A stretch of DNA of 64,000 bases, from assembly GCF_002729955.1 (NCBI RefSeq), contig NZ_PBYA01000054.1, forward strand, positions 1 to 64,000, given 5' to 3'. Below are positions 8,998 to 59,090 of the stretch, in pieces (positions within the stretch are counted from its first letter, which is position 1; each line of letters opens with the position of its first letter). This DNA comes from Salinisphaera sp. (GTDB taxonomy: Bacteria; Pseudomonadota; Gammaproteobacteria; Nevskiales; Salinisphaeraceae). A program made the position numbers and the translations under genes. The notes under the pieces are model-generated. The model was not told where the DNA came from. It searched no databases and was given only the letters and a program-made list of their open reading frames with translations.

Positions 8998-9010
8998 TTG
9001 TTAAAGATCG
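8998..9010 (-). promoter_or_regulatory. boxA-like Nus antitermination motif in CRISPR leader
   Basis: Read on the minus strand the sequence is CGATCTTTAACAA, matching 11 of 13 positions of the ribosomal-operon boxA consensus TGCTCTTTAACAA. It lies about 120 nt upstream of the first repeat and in the sense of array transcription. BoxA-dependent antitermination of CRISPR arrays by Nus factors is known in Salmonella. A 7.4-kb untranslated transcript with strong hairpins would be exposed to Rho, so the element fits. Function here is inferred from sequence only. Confidence 0.7.
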
Positions 9011-9070
9011 GCGAACCTGCCGGGGTTACTGGGTACGCTTGGGGTTCGCGCGCACGATTCAGGTGCAGGA

Positions 9071-9361
9071 TCAGAGGATGAGGGGCGCGTTAAGATCGCG
9101 TACCGGTTTGGCGCCGACATGTTCGACACGGCGCTGCCATTCGCGCCCCAGGAAGTAGAAGCGCAGGCTGTCTGTCTCTTCGTCGATGATATCGCACAGA
9201 CGGCTTTTGAGTTTGACCCATTGATCGGGTTCGACTTCAATTTCGAACACTGAGTACTGTACGCGCTGGCCGTAATCCAGGCAGGCTTTGCCGACGCGGC
9301 GCAATCGCCGCGGGCCGTCGCTGCTGGTTACGGCGACGTCGTAGCTCACGAGTACCATCAT
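9071..9361 (-). CDS. cas2: CRISPR-associated endoribonuclease-fold protein Cas2
   Basis: Cas2 dimerises and, with Cas1, forms the integrase complex that inserts new spacers at the leader-proximal repeat. The 96-residue protein begins MMVLVSYDV with the conserved N-terminal Asp (D8) of the ferredoxin-like fold. It contains the I-C type stretch RVQYSVFE and a DSLRFYFLG strand. It is the last gene of the cas operon, 15 bp after cas1, and abuts the leader. Length is normal for the subtype I-C family. The active adaptation machinery agrees with the freshness of the leader-proximal array end. Confidence 0.97.
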   Translation of the reverse strand: MMVLVSYDVAVTSSDGPRRLRRVGKACLDYGQRVQYSVFEIEVEPDQWVKLKSRLCDIIDEETDSLRFYFLGREWQRRVEHVGAKPVRDLNAPLIL

Positions 9362-9376
9362 CTGAAGATTGCTCCT

Positions 9377-10417
9377 TTACCCGCGGATGAAGGGAGGGTA
9401 GGCGTCGAGGTCGCCGCGTAGGTGGCGTGCGAGCAACTGCGCCTGGATGCTGGGCACGAGTCCGAGCGGTACGCGCTCGTCTAGAAACGGATGGACGAGC
9501 TCTTCGCGTTTGCGTTCCTGGTAGGCCGTGAGCACGGTTTTACGTCCGTCTTCGGTGAGCAGCACTGCGCCGCTTTCCGCAACGGAGAAGTCGCGCGCCT
9601 TGAGCTGGCGCCGGTTGATCAGTGTAAGCACGAGACGGTCGGCAATCAGCGGACGAAACTCTTCGGCGAGATCGAGCGCCAGGCTGGGGCGGCCGGGCCG
9701 GTCGCGGTGCAGAAAGCCGACCGCCGTATCCAGGCCAGTCTGTTCAAGCGCGGAGCGACAGTCGTGTGTGAGTAGGGTGTAGACAAACGAGAGCGCGGCA
9801 TTCACTCGATCACGCGGCGGTCGCCGATTGCGCCCGGAAAATTCGAACGCGGGGTCGTCACGATTGATCAGCGCTGGAAAGCTGGCGAAGTAGCGCTGGG
9901 CAGCTTCGCCTTCGAACCCGCGCAACACATCCGCATCTTGAGCATCGAGTAGTTTGTTTCTGATGCGCTCAAGCGTGCGGATCGTTGTGTCGAGTGCCTT
10001 GCGCTGATTGTCGCTTAGCTGTTTGGCTCGATCGCGTCTTTGTCGGTGCGCGACCGCGCGCTGGTTATGAATCTTGCCGATCAACAGATTGCGGATGACG
10101 GGCACGCATGTGCTCGGGTCATCGGTTGCGCGGTACTGGGCGCGGCGCAACAGAACGTTACCGGAGACCGGACCTTCGACACGTGCCTGGAATCGGCCGT
10201 TCGGCGTGAAGTAGCTGATCGCGATGCCTTGTTCGCAGCAATACGCCATGAGCGGCGGGGAGACCAGCGTGCGCCCAAAACAGACCAGGGATTCGAGCAT
10301 ATGGGCGGGCAGGCGGCCGCGCTCTTTGCCTTCGATCATCATGACGATATTGGCGCCGTCCTTCTTGAGCCAGGCACCTTCGCTCGTTACGTAAAGCGTG
10401 TTGAGTAGCTTTCTCAT
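9377..10417 (-). CDS. cas1: CRISPR-associated integrase Cas1 (subtype I-C)
   Basis: Cas1 catalyses the two transesterifications that integrate prespacers. The protein has 346 residues, the usual I-C length. The N-terminal beta domain (MRKLLNTLYVTSEGAWL) is followed by the helical catalytic domain. The metal-binding triad can be placed at E169 (GFEGEAAQRYF), H237 (VGFLHRDRPGRPSL) and D249 (LALDLAEEFRP). The start ATG overlaps the cas4 stop by four bases (ATGA), indicating translational coupling. Nothing is truncated, so adaptation should be functional. Confidence 0.98.
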   Translation of the reverse strand: MRKLLNTLYVTSEGAWLKKDGANIVMMIEGKERGRLPAHMLESLVCFGRTLVSPPLMAYCCEQGIAISYFTPNGRFQARVEGPVSGNVLLRRAQYRATDDPSTCVPVIRNLLIGKIHNQRAVAHRQRRDRAKQLSDNQRKALDTTIRTLERIRNKLLDAQDADVLRGFEGEAAQRYFASFPALINRDDPAFEFSGRNRRPPRDRVNAALSFVYTLLTHDCRSALEQTGLDTAVGFLHRDRPGRPSLALDLAEEFRPLIADRLVLTLINRRQLKARDFSVAESGAVLLTEDGRKTVLTAYQERKREELVHPFLDERVPLGLVPSIQAQLLARHLRGDLDAYPPFIRG

Positions 10418-51765: not shown

Positions 51766-52358
51766 CCGCAGATCAACGCAGATCGACGCAGAAAAAATCA
51801 AAGGTTGGATCGGATTGCCAGGTACACCCGACCACTCGATGGCCTTGTCTTTCAATCTGCGTAATTCGCTTAGTCTGCGGATTGTCTTCGGGGAACACCG
51901 ACGCCGTTCTGTCCGGTGCCTGAAGGCGCGATAGCCTGTCGCGCGTGATCAACCGTCTTCATCTGTGTAGATCTGCGTCGATCTGCGGACAGTATTCCGC
52001 GGCAGCAGTTGTCGTGCGTTGCTTGCATTGCTGCGGGAAGTGTTTGTCTCGTCGGTCGCCTGGGTTGTTTGTCCGCAGAGCAACGCAGATACAAGTAATC
52101 ACATGCTTTTGGCGTGTTTGGACCGTTAGCTTGGCGCACTTGAGGGAATCCGCGTAATTCGCGAAGTCTGCGGTTTGTTTCATGAAGCGGGCGCTATTCT
52201 TCCGTATGACAGAAGGCGCGATCACTTTTCGCGCGATAAACCGTCTTTATCTATGTAGATCTGTGTAGATCTGCGGACAATATTCCGCGGCCGTAGATTT
52301 CCTGCGTTGCTCGTATTGCTGCGGAACGTGGTTGTCTCGTCGATCTGCGGACAAAAGA
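51766..52358. repeat. Diverged tandem intergenic repeat, two copies of about 295 bp
   Basis: The gatB-yjbQ gap contains two similar units in tandem, beginning at about 51766 and 52063 with TTGTTTGTCCGCAG. Shared blocks include a GCGTAATTCGC / AGTCTGCGG stretch, GAAGGCGCGAT (51922 and 52212), TGTAGATCTG with GATCTGCGGACA, TATTCCGCGG, and GTTGTCTCGTCG near the end. Identity between units is partial, with small indels. Many short ATCTGCG-type motifs recur in both orientations. No coding potential is apparent. It may be an untranslated RNA cluster or a dispersed intergenic repeat. Confidence 0.65.
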
Positions 52359-52412
52359 TGCCCCATGTGCAACGCCCTTGTAATCCCGGTGAAAGGCGCC
52401 ACGATTAAACGC

Positions 52413-52829
52413 ATGCAACGCACGCTTTCATTCCAGACGCCCGGCCGTTCGACACGGGATATCACCGAAGACGTCAACGCGGTGGTACGCGAGGCGGGCG
52501 TGGCGACCGGCGTATGCCATGTATTCATTCGGCACACGTCGGCGTCACTGATGATCTGCGAAAACGCCGATCCGGATGTGCGCGAAGACGTGGAACGCTG
52601 GATGGCCAAGGCCGTGACCGATGGCGACCCCATGTTCGTGCACGACATGGAAGGCCCCGACGACATGCCCGGCCATATTCGCAGCATTCTGACCGGCATG
52701 GATCTGACCGTGCCGATCACCGACGGCGCGCTCAACCTGGGCACCTGGCAGGGCATTTATCTCTACGAGCACCGCAGCGCGCCGCATAACCGCGAGGTGG
52801 TGGTGACGCTGCTGCCGGCGGCAGGGTAG
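52413..52829 (+). CDS. yjbQ: YjbQ family protein (UPF0047)
   Basis: A 138-residue protein of the YjbQ/UPF0047 family: MQRTLSFQTPGRSTRDITEDV at the start, then GVCHVFIRHTSASLMICENADPDV and the C-terminal GTWQGIYLYEHR. The conserved histidines (HTSAS and YEHR) suggest a metal or phosphate site; some members show thiamine phosphate synthase-like activity, but the role is not settled. I start at ATG 52413 by family; an upstream ATG at 52365 would add 16 residues. Confidence 0.9.
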   Translation: MQRTLSFQTPGRSTRDITEDVNAVVREAGVATGVCHVFIRHTSASLMICENADPDVREDVERWMAKAVTDGDPMFVHDMEGPDDMPGHIRSILTGMDLTVPITDGALNLGTWQGIYLYEHRSAPHNREVVVTLLPAAG

Positions 52830-52974: not shown

Positions 52975-53514
52975 CTATTCGATCACGCCACAGTACATGC
53001 GTGCGCCGCCCTTGCCGTGGGCGTGGTTCGACGCCGCGTGGTGCTGGTAGCGGTCGGCGCCGGCGTGGATCATGATCGAGCGCCCGGCGAGATCGGCGAC
53101 GCGCAGGCGTGGCGCCAGAACCGGAATGGTCGCCGAACCGCCGGGCTCGACCGCGAGATTGGGCAGATCGCCGAGATGACCCTGACCGTAGGGGCCGCCA
53201 TGCCGGCCGGTATCGTATGGGTCGTAATGGCCGCCTGCAGCCGCCCCCATCGTCATGTCCCCGCGTTTCGATGCGGGGCCGCAGTCGGCATGGGTATGAA
53301 TATGGGCGCCGTGCAAGCTGGCCGCTTCGAGATCGTGAAGATCGGGCGTTACCAGCAGCCCGTGTTCAGTGTCGGAGAACGTTACGACGCCGACGAATGC
53401 GCTCGGCCCATCGTGGCTGAGGCGATGCACTTCGACTGTCTTGGCGCCGGCATCTGCGACCGCGCTCATTGTCAGTGCCAGTGATGCCGCGATGGCGAGG
53501 CGCCCGGCGTTCAC
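52975..53514 (-). CDS. sodC: Periplasmic Cu/Zn superoxide dismutase
   Basis: SodC dismutates superoxide in the periplasm. The 179-residue precursor starts at GTG 53514, whose GTGA overlaps the upstream stop. It has a signal peptide (about 2-22, IAASLALTMSAVADA). The copper ligands lie in HGAHIHTHADC, with AGGHYDPYDTGRHGGPYGQGHLGDLP supplying zinc and bridging histidines, and SIMIHAGADRYQHH the last copper ligand; the disulfide cysteines are in HADC and RMYCGVI. It is the third gene of an operon with a copper radical oxidase. Confidence 0.95.
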   Translation of the reverse strand: MNAGRLAIAASLALTMSAVADAGAKTVEVHRLSHDGPSAFVGVVTFSDTEHGLLVTPDLHDLEAASLHGAHIHTHADCGPASKRGDMTMGAAAGGHYDPYDTGRHGGPYGQGHLGDLPNLAVEPGGSATIPVLAPRLRVADLAGRSIMIHAGADRYQHHAASNHAHGKGGARMYCGVIE

Positions 53515-54530
53515 GGCGCTCGGGCGATCGGCGCCACCGGCTTCCATTCGGTGACGCCTTCGATCGCATCCTCGCGTTCGCCTATCGTCACCGGGATCGA
53601 CCAGCGCTTGATCACGTTGTCATTGTCATCGGACTCGACCTCACCGAGGTGGCCGATACGAGGATCGACCCAGCCATAGCGTGGCTGGCTCGAAACCTCG
53701 GCCCAACTCACGCCATTGCCCGCCTCGTAGCCGGGCGCGCCGGCAGGCGCGGCCTGCTGCCAGGTCGTGCTATGCCGGTTCACCGCCACGCCGCGCTCGT
53801 CGAAGCGCAGCATGGGCTCGGCGTCGGCGCCGTGCACCACCAGCGCCGCGTCGCCGGCATAGGACAGGAACAGCCCGGCACGCGCGCTGCCGTTCATGGC
53901 GCGCACCACAACGTTCGAGGCCAATGCGTTCGTCACACGGGCCTCCGGAATGCCGGTGGGTTCGGGCACGAACTGAAAACGGCCGCTGATGGCGCTGCGT
54001 GTATCGCCATATTGCACGGGGATGCGCCATTCGCCGACGTCGGCGCTCTTGCCTTCCCGGCGAACGGTGTCCGCTACGGCGACGGTGTCGGTGCGCAGAC
54101 GCAGATCGAACCAGCCCCAGTTCGCGGCCGGTTCGACCTCCTGCCAGTTCGGTGCCCGGGAGGCATCGGCAGAGAAGGTGCCCGGCGCCATGAGCGTATT
54201 GCTGCGGTGAAACGCCGCGGCGCCCAGGTCGGCTTCGACAACGCCGCCGCCGATGCGCAGAAACGCACGCCCGTTGTCATCCAATATCGTCAGCGGCCGC
54301 TCACCCGGATTGGCCACGAGCAGCTGCGGGGCGAGGGTACGACGCAGCTGTACCCGTACGCCCTCGAGCTCGGCCGGCAGCGGGTCGAGCACGGCACGCA
54401 CGGTGGCGTCGTCTTCGTTGCCGGAATGCCCGGCATGGCCGTGGGCCAGCGCGCTCGCGCCCAGAAGTATCAGGAGGGTAAAGTGCCGGCTCGTGGCAAC
54501 GAGCCGGCGTATGGATAGACGGCGCATCAT
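53511..54530 (-). CDS. Exported protein of two tandem modules, unknown function
   Basis: I do not recognise a family. The 339-residue protein has a signal peptide (about 1-29) followed by a mature N-terminus rich in histidine (HGHAGH, 30-35), a possible metal site. The rest consists of two copies of one module, about 69-190 and 219-333. Both have a beta-rich first half, then W-x-EV, a GW-x-D-x-R element (GWFDLR at 139-144, GWVDPR at 286-291), W-x-IPV (168-172 and 310-313) and an I-x-G turn. Four-base overlaps couple it to the copper oxidase gene before it and to sodC after it. A copper-handling or scaffold role for this operon is a guess. Confidence 0.8.
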   Translation of the reverse strand: MMRRLSIRRLVATSRHFTLLILLGASALAHGHAGHSGNEDDATVRAVLDPLPAELEGVRVQLRRTLAPQLLVANPGERPLTILDDNGRAFLRIGGGVVEADLGAAAFHRSNTLMAPGTFSADASRAPNWQEVEPAANWGWFDLRLRTDTVAVADTVRREGKSADVGEWRIPVQYGDTRSAISGRFQFVPEPTGIPEARVTNALASNVVVRAMNGSARAGLFLSYAGDAALVVHGADAEPMLRFDERGVAVNRHSTTWQQAAPAGAPGYEAGNGVSWAEVSSQPRYGWVDPRIGHLGEVESDDNDNVIKRWSIPVTIGEREDAIEGVTEWKPVAPIARAP

Positions 54531-57160
54531 TCGCCGTCTGCCTCGTTGTTGCCGGCGCTTTCGCCGAGATCCTCGGCAAGGCCCTTTCCGGCTTCGGGCA
54601 GGCTCGTGGCGGTATCGACGCCCACACCCGCGGCGCGCTTGCCGGCCTGGGTGAGTTCCTCTCCCACCGCGGGCGCGCCCTCGATCAACTCGCCCGGTGC
54701 CGGAATGATGCTGGTCACGCCCGACAGCAGATCGGTGATCGGCATGATCGGCGAGACGTCGTCTGCGGCCTGGCCGCTGCCCAGCAGGCCGTCGCCGGCT
54801 AACAGGCCGCCGACCAGCCCTTCGCTGTCATCGCCGTCGGCAACCGGGGTCGCCGGTTCGGGCTGATTGATCTCACCCTGACCGGCCGGGTTCGGGGCCA
54901 CGCCCACCGGCGTCGACACCGACGGTACGCGTTTGCCGTCGGCGGCTTCGAAGCTGGCGAACAGCATGTACTGGCCCGCGGGCAGTACCGCCGGATTGGC
55001 CGTCATCTGTACGGTGAGCGCGTTGCCACTACGCGAAACGATCGGCAGCACCACCGCGCGTTGATCGCCGTCGACCAGGTGCGTGGTGGCCGTACGGCGA
55101 ATGAGCATGACCTGATCCACGGCCAGGTTGCTCACCGTCATGGTGAAGGTGTCGCCGTTGGTTTCGAGGTCGGCGGGCGCGTTCTCGATCACGGGCCGGT
55201 CGCTGCGCATGGCGTAGGGCGGGGTATAGATCTCGAAGGAGGGGTCGCGGCTTTCGTAGTTGGCCAGGCCGATACTGTCGAGGTTGATGTTCGATGCGTA
55301 GGCCGTGTTGATCGGCGAATGGCCGCCGACGAGCACGCGCCCGTCGGGCATCAGCAACGCCGTGTTGTGGTAGGTACGCTTGCGATGCGCTCGCGTCATC
55401 ACCTGCCAGGTTTCGGTCTGCGGATCGAAGCGTTCGGCTTCGCGGATCGCGCCTTCCGCCCCGGGGACCACCACGCCGTCCCGATCGCCGCCGGAGAAGA
55501 TCATGACGCTGTCGTCAGGCATGATCACGGAATAGCTGTACCAGCGCGGCCGGCTCAGCGGTCCGGTCAGTCGCGAGGAATAGCGCATGTCGTCGCCGTT
55601 GACCTCGACCGTATCGATACGCGAGGACGACACCGGCAGGTAGCCGCCGGGGCTGCCCACGGTGACATAGGTGGGTACACCGCCGGCGGTCAGGAACTCG
55701 GCTTCGTGGTAGCCGCCGTTTTCGTCCGGGCGCAGCGGGAGCATGGCCGAGAAGGTCGAACCGCGCATGCCGGAGCCGATCGTACGTTCCAGCGTGCGGG
55801 CGTCGACCGGCGTATCGGCCAGTTGCTCGATTGCGGCCGCGGGATTGCTGACGGTCGTGCCCACCAGATCGCCAAGCAGGCTGGTGACCTGTTTGCCGTT
55901 CAGATTGGTCGGGTTGAGGGTGCTGGTCAGTTCCTTGAGTCCGATCTCATTGAACTTGAGCGGCAGCCCGGCATAGCCCAGATCGGTCCATTGCTGGGTG
56001 TCCGGATCGTAGGCGGCCACGATATTCCAAAGTGCCTGATCGTAGGCCTGGCCGAACGGATTGAATGCCTGGCCGCCGGCGTTGTAATAGACCTGGCCGT
56101 TCGGCAGCAGGTGCAGGCGCGGGAACAGCGGCAGCGAGCGCTGTGCGGCGTCGCCGTTCTCGCTCCAGCGCCCGGTATCCAGGTCGTAGGTTTCGGTTTG
56201 CGTGACGTTGCGCCCCGAGTTCAACGGCTGTTCCGGGTACACCGGCTTGAGCAGCTTGGTGACACCGCTGGCCACGAACACGTCACCGTCGGCGAGGGTC
56301 ACGAGGGTGGGGTACCAGCGCCCGAACGTCATGTCGCCGCTTTGCGTCCACGTATTGCTTTGCGGGTCGAAGATACGCGAGGACTTGAGCCCTTCGAGTT
56401 CGACCACGCCCACCGGCAGGCCGTCCACGCCGGGCTCGGTGTAGTAGTCGGTCCCGCCTACCGCCATCATGCTGCCATCGGCAAGGAATACCACGTCCGC
56501 GCAGAACAGGGCGCCGTCGTTCTTGGCGGTGTTGTCGGCGGTGGACAGAATGCCGTCGGGCACACCCGGCAGGCCGCGCGCGATGGTTTCGCTGTCGTTG
56601 CCCTTCGGGTTGGCGCCGCCGTCGATCGGGGAGGGTTTTTTCCACGACGGCGTGTCGCCTTCGCCCAGGCTGAGTACCCGCGACTGATCGTTGACGGTGA
56701 CCTCGCCGAACTCGGCCACGATCGACAGCTCCACGTTCTCGGTGCCTTCCAGGGCATTGAGATAGACGAAGCGGCCGTCGCCGAGATTGGCCACCGTGCC
56801 GGCCGCCGGCTTGCAGCTCAGCGTGCCGTCCTCGCGCGTCAGGCAGCGTTCGTCGGTTTCCACCGTTTTACCGTCGACCACGAGGGTGGGTTCGGCAAAG
56901 GGTTCGCTGAAACGACCGCCGATCTGCGGCGGCAGGTTGTTCGCCTCGGCGCCGCGTGGCGCGGCGGCGGGTCTGGCCGTAGACGCAGTGTCCGCGGATG
57001 CCGAAGCCGTATCGGTGGAGTCGCTCTGTGCGGGCGTATCCGGCTTACCGGCATTGAGCAGTTTGCCCAATACGCCGTCGTCGAGGGCAGCCAGCGCCGG
57101 GCTGGATGACAAACAGAAAGCCAGGGCGGCCGTCGTCGCCGCAGACAGGGTCGTGCGCAT
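54527..57160 (-). CDS. Secreted copper radical oxidase (galactose oxidase/GlxA-like)
   Basis: The 877-residue precursor has a signal peptide (about 1-25), a low-complexity linker (40-70), a seven-bladed kelch propeller and a C-terminal DUF1929 domain (about 650-755). All galactose-oxidase active-site residues have counterparts: C220 (ALFCADVVF) and Y283 (GRWYPT) for the Cys-Tyr radical cofactor, Y597 and H598 (RKRTYHNTALLMPDGRV), and H694 (RTATTHLVDGDQ). It should oxidise an alcohol or aldehyde with release of H2O2; the substrate is unknown. Residues 760-877 form an extra acidic, glycine-rich tail. A GGAGGA site precedes ATG 57160. It heads the operon with the two-module protein and sodC. Confidence 0.9.
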   Translation of the reverse strand: MRTTLSAATTAALAFCLSSSPALAALDDGVLGKLLNAGKPDTPAQSDSTDTASASADTASTARPAAAPRGAEANNLPPQIGGRFSEPFAEPTLVVDGKTVETDERCLTREDGTLSCKPAAGTVANLGDGRFVYLNALEGTENVELSIVAEFGEVTVNDQSRVLSLGEGDTPSWKKPSPIDGGANPKGNDSETIARGLPGVPDGILSTADNTAKNDGALFCADVVFLADGSMMAVGGTDYYTEPGVDGLPVGVVELEGLKSSRIFDPQSNTWTQSGDMTFGRWYPTLVTLADGDVFVASGVTKLLKPVYPEQPLNSGRNVTQTETYDLDTGRWSENGDAAQRSLPLFPRLHLLPNGQVYYNAGGQAFNPFGQAYDQALWNIVAAYDPDTQQWTDLGYAGLPLKFNEIGLKELTSTLNPTNLNGKQVTSLLGDLVGTTVSNPAAAIEQLADTPVDARTLERTIGSGMRGSTFSAMLPLRPDENGGYHEAEFLTAGGVPTYVTVGSPGGYLPVSSSRIDTVEVNGDDMRYSSRLTGPLSRPRWYSYSVIMPDDSVMIFSGGDRDGVVVPGAEGAIREAERFDPQTETWQVMTRAHRKRTYHNTALLMPDGRVLVGGHSPINTAYASNINLDSIGLANYESRDPSFEIYTPPYAMRSDRPVIENAPADLETNGDTFTMTVSNLAVDQVMLIRRTATTHLVDGDQRAVVLPIVSRSGNALTVQMTANPAVLPAGQYMLFASFEAADGKRVPSVSTPVGVAPNPAGQGEINQPEPATPVADGDDSEGLVGGLLAGDGLLGSGQAADDVSPIMPITDLLSGVTSIIPAPGELIEGAPAVGEELTQAGKRAAGVGVDTATSLPEAGKGLAEDLGESAGNNEADGE

Positions 57161-57247
57161 CGGGTTCTCCTCCGACAACTTCGAGGCATTTTTGTCGTTT
57201 TGCCCGAGTCGTTTTATTTGTGATCGGTCGGAAGCAACCGTTAGCAC

Positions 57248-57265
57248 GCGCCAATTAATTGGCGC
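57248..57265. promoter_or_regulatory. 18-bp palindrome upstream of the copper oxidase operon
   Basis: A perfect palindrome, GCGCCAATTAATTGGCGC, lies 88-105 bp before the start codon in the AT-rich 5-prime region of the operon. It looks like a dimeric repressor or activator site. No clear -10/-35 pair could be fixed beside it; a TTGACG lies further upstream (minus strand near 57337). Confidence 0.5.
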
Positions 57266-57434
57266 AAACACGAAATTCGCGTCGGAAAGCCGTCTGTCGC
57301 GGCACAAGGCTTTGACTACAGGGGGTTAGCCAGTCGTCAAATTTTTGGGAAAAATTACCCAGAGACGTTTCTAGCGCCCGATCGGCTCGATCCAGCGCAG
57401 TCGGGCCGGGGGTTGCGCCCGGCCCGCAGCGGCC

Positions 57435-59027
57435 CTAGTGATGAAAGTGGCGAATGCCGGTAAAGACCATGGCAATGCCGGCTTCATCGGCGGCGGCGAT
57501 CACTTCGTCGTCGCGAATCGAGCCGCCGGGCTGGATCACGGCCTTCACGCCGGCTTCGGCGGCGGCGTCCAGGCCGTCGCGGAAGGGGAAGAAGGCATCC
57601 GATGCCATCACCGACCCGGCCACTTCCAGCCCCGCATCGCGGGCCTTGATGCCGGCGATACGGGCTGAATCCACACGGCTCATCTGCCCCGCGCCCACGC
57701 CGATCGTGCGCCCGTCGCGGGCGTAGACGATGGCGTTGGATTTCACGTACTTGGCCACTCGCCAGGCAAACAGCAAGTCCTGTAGCTGGGTGCCGTCGGG
57801 CTGGGCCTTTGTGACCACATCGAGCTTGTCGCGGTCGAACAGCAGGGCATCGGCGTCCTGTACCAGCAGCCCGCCGGCGATCTGGCGCATGGCCAGCTTC
57901 GGCGTGTCGCCGGCCTTGAAGTCGCCGGTGGCGATCACGCGCAGATTCTTCTTCTTGGAGAAGGCCTCCAGCGCGGCGTCGTCGATACGCGGGGCGATGA
58001 TCACTTCCGCGAACTGGTTGGCCAGAATCTGGTTCGCCGTGTCTACATCCAGGGCCTCGTTGAAGGCGATGATGCCGCCAAAGGCCGAGGTGGGGTCGGT
58101 GGCGAAGGCGCGCTCGTAGGCGGTCTTCAGGTCGGGACCGACGGCTACACCACAGGGGTTGGCGTGCTTGACGATCACGCAGGCCGGGGCCTGGTCGAAG
58201 GCGCGTACGCAGGCCAGAGCCGCGTCGGAATCAGCCAGGTTGTTGTAGGACAGCGCCTTGCCCTGGCACACGCGGGCATCCACCAGGCTCGCGGCCACCG
58301 GGTTGGAGGCGGCGTAGAGGGCCGCCCGCTGGTGCGGGTTCTCGCCGTAGCGCAGATCCTGGCGCTTGGTATAGGTCGCCGCGAAGCGGGCCGGCAGCAC
58401 GTCTTCGGCTTCGCTGTCGGGCGTGCTCTCGTCGCCCTGCAGATAGTCGGCGATGGCTCGGTCGTAGCCGGCGGTATGGTTGAAGCCCTTGGCAGCCAGA
58501 CGACGGCGGGTGGCGGTCCGGGTGCCGCCATGGGCACTCAGATCATCCAGTACGGCGTCGTAGTCCGCAGCATCCACGACCAGGGTCACGAAGGCGTGGT
58601 TCTTGGCCGCGGCACGCAGCATGGCCGGGCCGCCGATATCGATCGTCTCGATGGCCTGATCGCGCGGGCAGTTCGGGTCGGCCACGGTCTGTTCGAAGGG
58701 GTAGAGATTGACCACCACCAGGTCGATGGGCGCGATGCCCTGTTCGGCCATCACCTCGTCGTCCTGACCGCGCCGGCCGAGAATGCCGCCATGGATCTTG
58801 GGGTGCAGCGTCTTCACGCGCCCGTCCATGATCTCCGGCGCGCCGGTGTGGGCGGCTACATCGACCACCTCAACGCCGGCTTCGCGCAGCACGCGGGCGG
58901 TACCGCCGGTCGAAAGGATTTCGACACCGTGCTCATCGGCCAGCGCCTTGGCAAAGGCGGCCACGCCGGTCTTGTCGGAAACGCTGATCAGGGCGCGGCG
59001 GATGGGGGCGTGTTCGGTTGCGGTCAC
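57435..59027 (-). CDS. purH: AICAR transformylase/IMP cyclohydrolase
   Basis: PurH performs the last two steps of IMP synthesis. The 530-residue protein has the N-terminal IMP cyclohydrolase domain ([37 protein letters not shown]) and the transformylase domain ([51 protein letters not shown]). The start is GTG 59027, with AAAGG seven bases upstream; an upstream TTG lies in the fis terminator and is rejected. A 9-bp GC hairpin (57402-57410 with 57418-57426) follows the stop. Confidence 0.97.
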
Positions 59028-59064
59028 GATAGCCTTTGTCCGTGAGACGGTTTGTATTGGGTTC

Positions 59065-59090
59065 AAATAAAAACACCCGCAATGCGGGTG
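59065..59090 (-). terminator. Intrinsic terminator after fis
   Basis: CACCCGC and GCGGGTG (59074-59080 and 59084-59090) form a 7-bp stem with a 3-nt loop. On the minus strand it is followed by TTTTTATTT. It lies 27 bp after the fis stop and separates fis from purH, which must then use its own promoter or read-through. Confidence 0.85.

Follow-up and report, generated by a model that had tools for sequence, protein, structure and literature searches.

The three genes at the purH-yjbQ site

The window analysed here, a stretch of 64,000 nucleotides from a Salinisphaera sp. genome (RefSeq assembly GCF_002729955.1, contig NZ_PBYA01000054.1, positions 1 to 64,000), carries three genes on the minus strand between purH and yjbQ, which encode a copper radical oxidase, a protein referred to here as P2, and the Cu,Zn superoxide dismutase SodC (Table 1). 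Across the genomes searched, the conserved unit was found to be the pair of oxidase and P2, not the trio with SodC. The coordinates and calls of all three open reading frames (ORFs) were confirmed, and the three-gene operon with two 4-bp overlaps (ATGA and GTGA) reported in a preliminary description of this locus stands. All three products have signal-peptide-like N-termini, and the oxidase and SodC are copper enzymes by homology.

The sequence marks the oxidase as an intact member of the copper radical oxidases, of the GlxA/aldehyde-oxidase type. Pfam analysis identified an early-set domain (GO-like_E_set, 54 bits) and kelch motifs, and the closest sequences in the PDB were three GlxA entries (best E 5.8e-35). 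A structure model of modest confidence, in which both tails were unordered (pLDDT 61.8, pTM 0.69), also found GlxA as its best fold match in Foldseek (E 2.9e-33, prob 1.00). The five cofactor and ligand residues listed in the preliminary description, namely the Cys-Tyr pair (C220, Y283), the axial Tyr (Y597) and two His (H598, H694), are all present in the window protein, match GlxA wherever the printed alignment reaches, and are kept in 33 of 33 clade members and in all 16 far relatives aligned. They had been assigned to galactose oxidase, which holds for the five residues but not for the second shell, where the Trp is W282, directly before Y283, the arrangement of GlxA and aldehyde oxidase. 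W282 falls on the position that is mutated to Ala in GlxA W288A (PDB 5lxz). According to the available part of PMC13094651, W288 fills the second-shell place in GlxA and a consecutive Trp-Tyr is found in the Fusarium aldehyde oxidase FgrAldOx, while in galactose oxidase the stacking Trp is W290, contributed by a different stretch of the polypeptide. As W282 and Y283 are consecutive, unlike the equivalent residues of galactose oxidase, the window protein is better named GlxA/aldehyde-oxidase-like. It is not GlxA itself, as it scored 181.8 bits against the NCBIfam GlxA equivalog NF052501, under the curated cut-off of 800.

A tree was built by a quick method from the oxidases of the window and 29 further P2-linked loci, three unlinked oxidases and 16 hand-picked far loci (genomes and loci of the searches carry G and L numbers). 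A long branch (1.36 changes per column, support 100) separated the 30 P2-linked and three unlinked oxidases from the 16 far relatives, although the method warned of a meeting of long branches between the far relatives and the Pseudonocardia pair. Loci L012, L013, L018, L020, L022, L023, L026, L027, L032, L034, L035, L036 and L038, mostly near-copies or cut loci, were left out.

The oxidase gene is the first of the three and is preceded by the Shine-Dalgarno-like sequence GGAGGAGA, and a promoter scan of the gap before it matched no sigma-70 consensus. An alternative ATG start for SodC at 53547 would give a protein of 190 aa. A search of the window against Rfam returned one tRNA.

Table 1. Coordinates of the genes, overlaps and borders at the oxidase locus in the window
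Feature	Coordinates	Strand	Remarks
Copper radical oxidase	54527..57160	-	877 aa; kelch propeller and early-set domain; GlxA-like active site; both tails of low confidence in the model
P2 (middle protein)	53511..54530	-	339 aa; predicted to be exported; two modules; predicted mature N-terminus His30, codon at 54443
SodC	52975..53514	-	Predicted exported Cu,Zn superoxide dismutase; 179 aa from GTG start
Oxidase-P2 stop/start overlap	54527..54530	-	ATGA, 4 bp
P2-SodC stop/start overlap	53511..53514	-	GTGA, 4 bp
Gap, purH stop to oxidase start	57161..57434	-	274 bp; holds the Shine-Dalgarno-like sequence
purH	57435..59066	-	Left border of the genomic site
yjbQ (UPF0047)	52332..52829	+	Right border of the site; convergent to the operon

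Distribution of the oxidase-P2 pair and of SodC

A neighbourhood survey had been suggested for the trio, and it was the pair of oxidase and P2 that proved to be widely conserved, the trio not. One genome from each of 84,980 species was scanned with a single P2 motif, which identified 29 loci in 28 genomes (L026 and L034 share one genome), among them Salinisphaera, Marinobacter, Alcanivorax, Alloalcanivorax, a Moraxellaceae metagenome-assembled genome, Pseudonocardia and Actinomycetospora; as one motif was used, the loci are an uneven sample. The oxidase adjoins P2 in 27 of these loci, the exceptions being L026, which starts at a contig end, and L033. Within the order, the oxidase was found in 9 and P2 in 10 of 85 genomes, and P2 was located beside the oxidase in 9 of 9. 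A survey of the class (369 genomes) found P2 in three, namely the genome of the window, G065, which also has the oxidase, and G429, which holds a remnant; the oxidase query matched seven more genomes, with far relatives only and none listed with P2. In the phylum survey (Pseudomonadota, 388 genomes), P2 was present in the genome of the window, as the remnant in G429 and in three others, five in all, and an adjacent oxidase was present in the genome of the window and all three others. As the genome searches score few candidates per genome, absences are not proofs. The G429 remnant is a single ORF (L079, 7492-8640, minus strand) in which the N-terminal part of the oxidase is fused to P2; an internal deletion would produce such an ORF, which looks like a fossil of the pair.

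The pairing was also examined in 296 genomes of Actinomycetes, the class of the Pseudonocardia genome of L040. A P2-family match was found in 21 and an oxidase-family match in 59, the oxidases being split by a clear gap into 14 strong genomes (at least 186 bits) and 45 weak ones (104 bits or less). Two-module P2 was carried by 11 genomes, all within the 14 with a strong oxidase (11 with both, 3 with oxidase only, 0 with P2 only, 282 with neither; Fisher p 1.1e-17), and chance adjacency was rejected on this result. The paired genes lie on the same strand in 11 of 11 cases, with open frames abutting or overlapping in 10, and P2 comes first at some loci and the oxidase at others. Where the oxidase is upstream, its stop lies -4 to +26 bp from the P2 start in all 26 loci measured, Pseudonocardia included, with start codons chosen by the analyst. 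Pairwise identities of oxidase and P2 over 30 gene pairs were correlated (r 0.90; 0 of 2000 Mantel shuffles as high), as expected for co-inheritance, which is what the value shows and not interaction, the Mantel test ignoring shared ancestry. The remaining neighbours of the pair vary over the five loci compared, from three gammaproteobacterial groups, and give no shared clue to the substrate. No description of the pair was found among the titles and abstract openings listed by searches of an open-access library.

Variants of the pair were observed at several loci. P2 was found on plasmids in 3 records and was not found in the phage collection; plasmid pHP-187 of Marinobacter adhaerens HP15 carries an oxidase gene followed by a one-module P2 of 186 aa (L012, 5803-6363). 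In Marinobacter similis A3d10 (L027), both the oxidase and P2 look frameshifted, as the tblastn pieces change frame, which may reflect decay of the two genes together or errors in the sequence. The P2 of G065 (L010, 997-1500, minus strand) carries a long, His-rich extension at its C-terminus. At three actinobacterial loci, L011 (10693-14523), L110 (6563-10679) and L041 (9511-11250), the gene of P2 or of a paralogue is clustered with those of a polytopic membrane protein and of a cupredoxin-like lipoprotein; in L041 the polytopic and cupredoxin-like genes directly follow the oxidase and P2 genes, and these cluster proteins had no Pfam match above cut-off where tested. Two-component and cupredoxin-like genes are found next to the Pseudonocardia copies.

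SodC scored 100.3 bits against Pfam Sod_Cu (cut-off 28.9), matches bacterial SodC structures and has the usual Cu/Zn His/Asp ligand motifs and the Cys pair. Its distribution was followed in 14 genomes of the genus, which includes Salinisphaera shabanensis and S. orenii. Seven of these carry the oxidase and P2, and SodC lies inside the operon in three (G000, G076 and G078), so the trio is nearly, but not quite, unique to this strain. The P2 proteins of the two further operon genomes are 86% and 67% identical to that of the window, and the order of P2 and SodC is the same. In G074 and G082, SodC is on the yjbQ strand, convergent to the oxidase, with a porin gene between SodC and P2. The porin was seen at L015 and L016 (~9000-10380), and the copy in L016 (G074) matches OprB (Pfam), of the carbohydrate-selective type. 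The record of L015 is titled Endozoicomonas sp. G2_2 and has a Salinisphaera-like purH-yjbQ-gatB locus, so the title may be wrong. G079, which is 81% complete, and G084 keep the oxidase and P2, and SodC was not found in either genome at E 1e-8. G075 has neither oxidase nor P2, and its SodC gene too lies at this site between purH and yjbQ, on the strand of yjbQ. The six SodCs at this site, that of G075 included, form one clade (support 97/95), which excludes the order's ten other SodCs. Outside the genus, the window SodC query was unmatched in the oxidase-P2 loci of Marinobacter, Alcanivorax, the Moraxellaceae metagenome-assembled genome and Actinomycetes (flanks up to ~8 kb), and had no match beside the pair in G056 and G065.

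As a copy is located at the site in G075, the site copies form one clade and their orientation differs between subclades, SodC was, or became, a resident of the site independently of the oxidase. SodC looks like a local addition to the operon in one Salinisphaera subclade, and the trio as a conserved three-part system was rejected, given its presence in 3 of 14 genus genomes and the lack of matches in the loci searched outside the genus. The preliminary description suggested that SodC might protect or tune the radical enzyme as part of the system. In keeping with membership, P2 and SodC overlap by 4 bp in the window, two further genomes have the two genes in this order, and SodC is present at the site in 5 of 7 oxidase genomes of the genus against 1 of 7 others (Fisher p 0.10). 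The two oxidase genomes in which SodC was not found, the lack of a match in the loci searched outside the genus, the single clade that takes in the copy present without oxidase or P2, and the convergent rather than co-directional copies of G074 and G082 make membership improbable. A local benefit of SodC to the three operon genomes, where the arrangement is stable, is possible, the association across the genus being weak. The SodC reaction produces hydrogen peroxide, and SodC as a remover of the H2O2 of the oxidase was rejected for this reason.

The operon could also be a general copper-enzyme cassette in which P2 delivers copper to several periplasmic enzymes, SodC among them, as the signal-peptide-like N-termini of all three products and the two copper enzymes might suggest. 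However, P2 tracks the oxidase across two phyla with or without SodC, and the identities of P2 mirror those of the oxidase, so that such a role is very improbable.

P2 and its single-module relatives

P2 had no match above cut-off in Pfam or NCBIfam, the only one seen being Peptidase_M11 at E 0.17, and three further P2s likewise had nothing above cut-off in Pfam. There was no Pfam match to the YcnI/DUF1775, CopC, PCuAC or Sco profiles. Among PDB sequences, the P2 query gave a single unconvincing match (E 0.011) and a P2 profile none. The protein consists of two related modules, each of ~150 aa (blastp of module 1 against module 2: 23% identity, E 1e-6) and not of 240-250 aa as had been described, and the predicted mature chain was modelled as two beta-sandwich modules (pLDDT 84.5). 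Foldseek found nothing for this fold at E 0.001 or below. VIA gave generic resemblances with Z of 4.7 or less, mostly over the C-terminal module, to common beta-sandwich proteins such as pilus chaperones, RbmA and glycan-binding proteins. CopC and YcnI were not among the 50 best fold matches listed by Foldseek and VIA, which excludes neither.

Nor is P2 rich in histidine, as had been thought: the predicted mature protein of 310 aa contains 7 His, three of them within the first six residues, and no Cys. The signal-peptidase site of the window P2 is predicted between ALA and HGHAGH, which would place His30 first. In 27 of 30 oxidase-linked P2s the residue after the predicted site is a His, cleavage being predicted from the pattern; simple regular expressions with Ala at -1 (also Gly in the oxidase-linked set) were used, and the sites of L119, L113, L130, L132, L020, L023 and L024 were read by eye. 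Over 30 sequences, the near-invariant residues of P2 are Trp, Gly, Arg, Asn, Gln and Phe. A classical histidine brace was considered and is weakened, as the model shows no order at the N-terminus and there is no conserved second His.

The weaker P2-family matches of Actinomycetes were found to have one such module, mostly with apparent membrane helices behind it (membrane helices were judged by eye throughout). A profile comparison with hhalign showed these single-module relatives and the P2 module to be homologous (99.2%, E 1.7e-19). None of seven tested was above cut-off in Pfam, nor any of the members tested in NCBIfam. With a profile of the family, 16 PDB matches were returned at E 1 or below, the best at 0.0038; most were short alignments to ribosomal protein L39, and they were read as chance. 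The single-module family, represented by L122-L132, carries a [WF]HD[HQ]R motif and is encoded next to CopC-CopD and YcnI. All 11 loci examined had CopC-CopD nearby and 10 of them YcnI (~6.5 kb on each side, less at contig ends), and Pfam analysis of 55 neighbour ORFs from 10 loci, hand-picked from L123-L132 with the single-module proteins themselves included, identified 10 CopC, 10 CopD and 8 DUF1775. All 12 relatives inspected for it have a His after the signal-peptidase pattern, and H1, one internal His, an Asp and an Arg are invariant in the 10 that were aligned. The invariant His of the motif is replaced by Phe or Val in the modules of the window P2 (WGWFDLR and YGWVDPR). YcnI is described, in the available part of PMC8424229, as binding Cu(II) via its N-terminal His together with a Glu, a Trp lying nearby. 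A role for P2 in copper handling is plausible, as the CopC-CopD and YcnI neighbourhoods of the relatives and the predicted His after the signal peptide lend it independent support.

A possible role for P2 and comparison with known systems

The preliminary description had allowed P2 either to deliver copper or to anchor the complex. The first of these is supported by the neighbourhoods of the relatives and by the N-terminal His, and P2 may help to load copper into the oxidase, a proposal in which our confidence falls a little short of even. Anchoring belongs to the chief rival explanation, in which P2 has a structural role and does not itself bind copper: as a scaffold, anchor or substrate-binding subunit it would hold the oxidase at the envelope or present the substrate to it. 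The beta-sandwich modules with invariant Trp, Arg and Gly and without invariant metal ligands in the fold, and the weak resemblance only to common beta-sandwich proteins, are in accord with a structural partner. GlxA itself works in a complex with CslA, according to the available part of PMC11022532, and the Pseudonocardia P2 copy in L011 ends in a membrane helix (by eye). A structural partner leaves the CopC-CopD (11 of 11) and YcnI (10 of 11) neighbourhoods of the relatives unexplained, as well as the His after the signal peptide in both branches, and is an alternative that we consider less likely than not.

Several observations weigh against copper loading by P2 as a partner of the oxidase. 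Among the P2 proteins, no His, Cys or Met is invariant inside the fold over 30 sequences, the first 11 mature residues of the window P2, His included, are unordered in the model with no brace-like site, the His after the signal peptide is missing in three actinobacterial P2s (L110, L113 and L041), and the internal His pair of the CopC-linked relatives (H108, H110) is not kept in oxidase-linked P2. CopC-CopD and YcnI were unmatched at E 1e-6 in the flanking DNA of 48 oxidase/P2 loci, a set that includes cut loci and L033, L121 and L175-L177, where one of the two genes is missing. With regard to the pairing, the tenth P2 of the order (G069, L033) is without an oxidase and lies alone between purH and yjbQ, a second two-module P2 copy is located away from the oxidase in G450 and G524, ~1.4 kb with a gene likely on the opposite strand separates oxidase and P2 in L113, and three oxidases of the clade (G491, G585 and G615) have no P2 in the genome at E 1e-6, nor nearby. 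The lone P2, from Salinisphaeraceae CPC72 (G069; L033, 7905-8876), has no His after the signal peptide.

Taken as a whole, the locus may be explained as a two-gene module of a copper radical oxidase from a clade distinct from GlxA and a copper-handling P2, with SodC as a resident of the site, an explanation that we hold to be evenly balanced between right and wrong. The oxidase and P2 would be expressed from one transcript with coupled translation, and both would be exported. The free N-terminal His of P2 would bind Cu(II) outside the cytoplasm, and P2 would hand Cu(II) to the folded apo-oxidase or, perhaps in a complex, hold it there. Copper and O2 would then form the Tyr-Cys cofactor, and the mature oxidase would oxidise an aldehyde or an alcohol and yield H2O2. 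SodC, resident at the same chromosomal site, would have ended in the operon in one Salinisphaera subclade. More tentatively, P2 might be the founding member of a so far undescribed protein family dedicated to copper loading (cofactor maturation) in copper radical oxidases. P2 would then have originated when a module that serves CopC-CopD copper import in Actinomycetes was duplicated, and it would be coupled in translation to the oxidase across Pseudomonadota and Actinomycetota.

In the available part of PMC4736821, maturation of GlxA at low copper is reported to require Sco, ECuC and DtpA, the glxA cluster adjoins sco in Frankia, and oxidase genes co-occur with sco in Burkholderia. These partners of the Streptomyces enzyme are the only maturation partners for bacterial copper radical oxidases that were found in the literature searched. 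If a second oxidase clade, one that crosses phyla, has a fixed partner, co-expression of the two proteins would allow a direct test of cofactor loading. A function would also follow for the family encoded beside CopC-CopD and YcnI, members of which had no Pfam or NCBIfam match above cut-off when tested, and the biocatalytic use of bacterial oxidases would gain a protein to co-express.

The window SodC shares nearly the whole of its sequence and the metal-ligand motifs with bacterial SodC (PDB 1z9p, 1eqw) and differs in nothing notable except its place in the operon. P2 resembles YcnI (DUF1775) and CopC, which are exported and bind Cu(II) with an N-terminal His, in that its signal peptide is likewise predicted to be followed by His, and the genes for both adjoin those of its single-module relatives. 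However, P2 matches neither in Pfam, has two modules and, in the model, lacks an ordered His site. The signal-strapping metalloproteins (DUF4198, DUF6702, Ang-1 and Ang-2; PMC12537917), for which metal binding has been shown, were identified by a conserved His that comes first once the signal peptide is cleaved. These are other families than P2, which is not named in the examined text of that paper, where neither "galactose oxidase" nor "copper radical oxidase" is mentioned.

The fold of the window oxidase is common to the fungal AA5 aldehyde and galactose oxidases (PDB 9n3u, 1gof); FgrAldOx has the same consecutive Trp-Tyr (PMC13094651, available part), whereas in galactose oxidase the stacking Trp comes from another loop. 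GlxA of Streptomyces lividans (PDB 4unm, 5lxz) shares the fold, the Cys-Tyr cofactor, the ligands and the Trp beside the Tyr. The window oxidase, at 182 bits against the GlxA cut-off of 800, belongs to a distinct clade and is paired with P2, whereas GlxA is coupled to CslA (PMC11022532, available part), and the maturation genes sco, ecuc and dtpA lie elsewhere in S. lividans (PMC4736821, available part).

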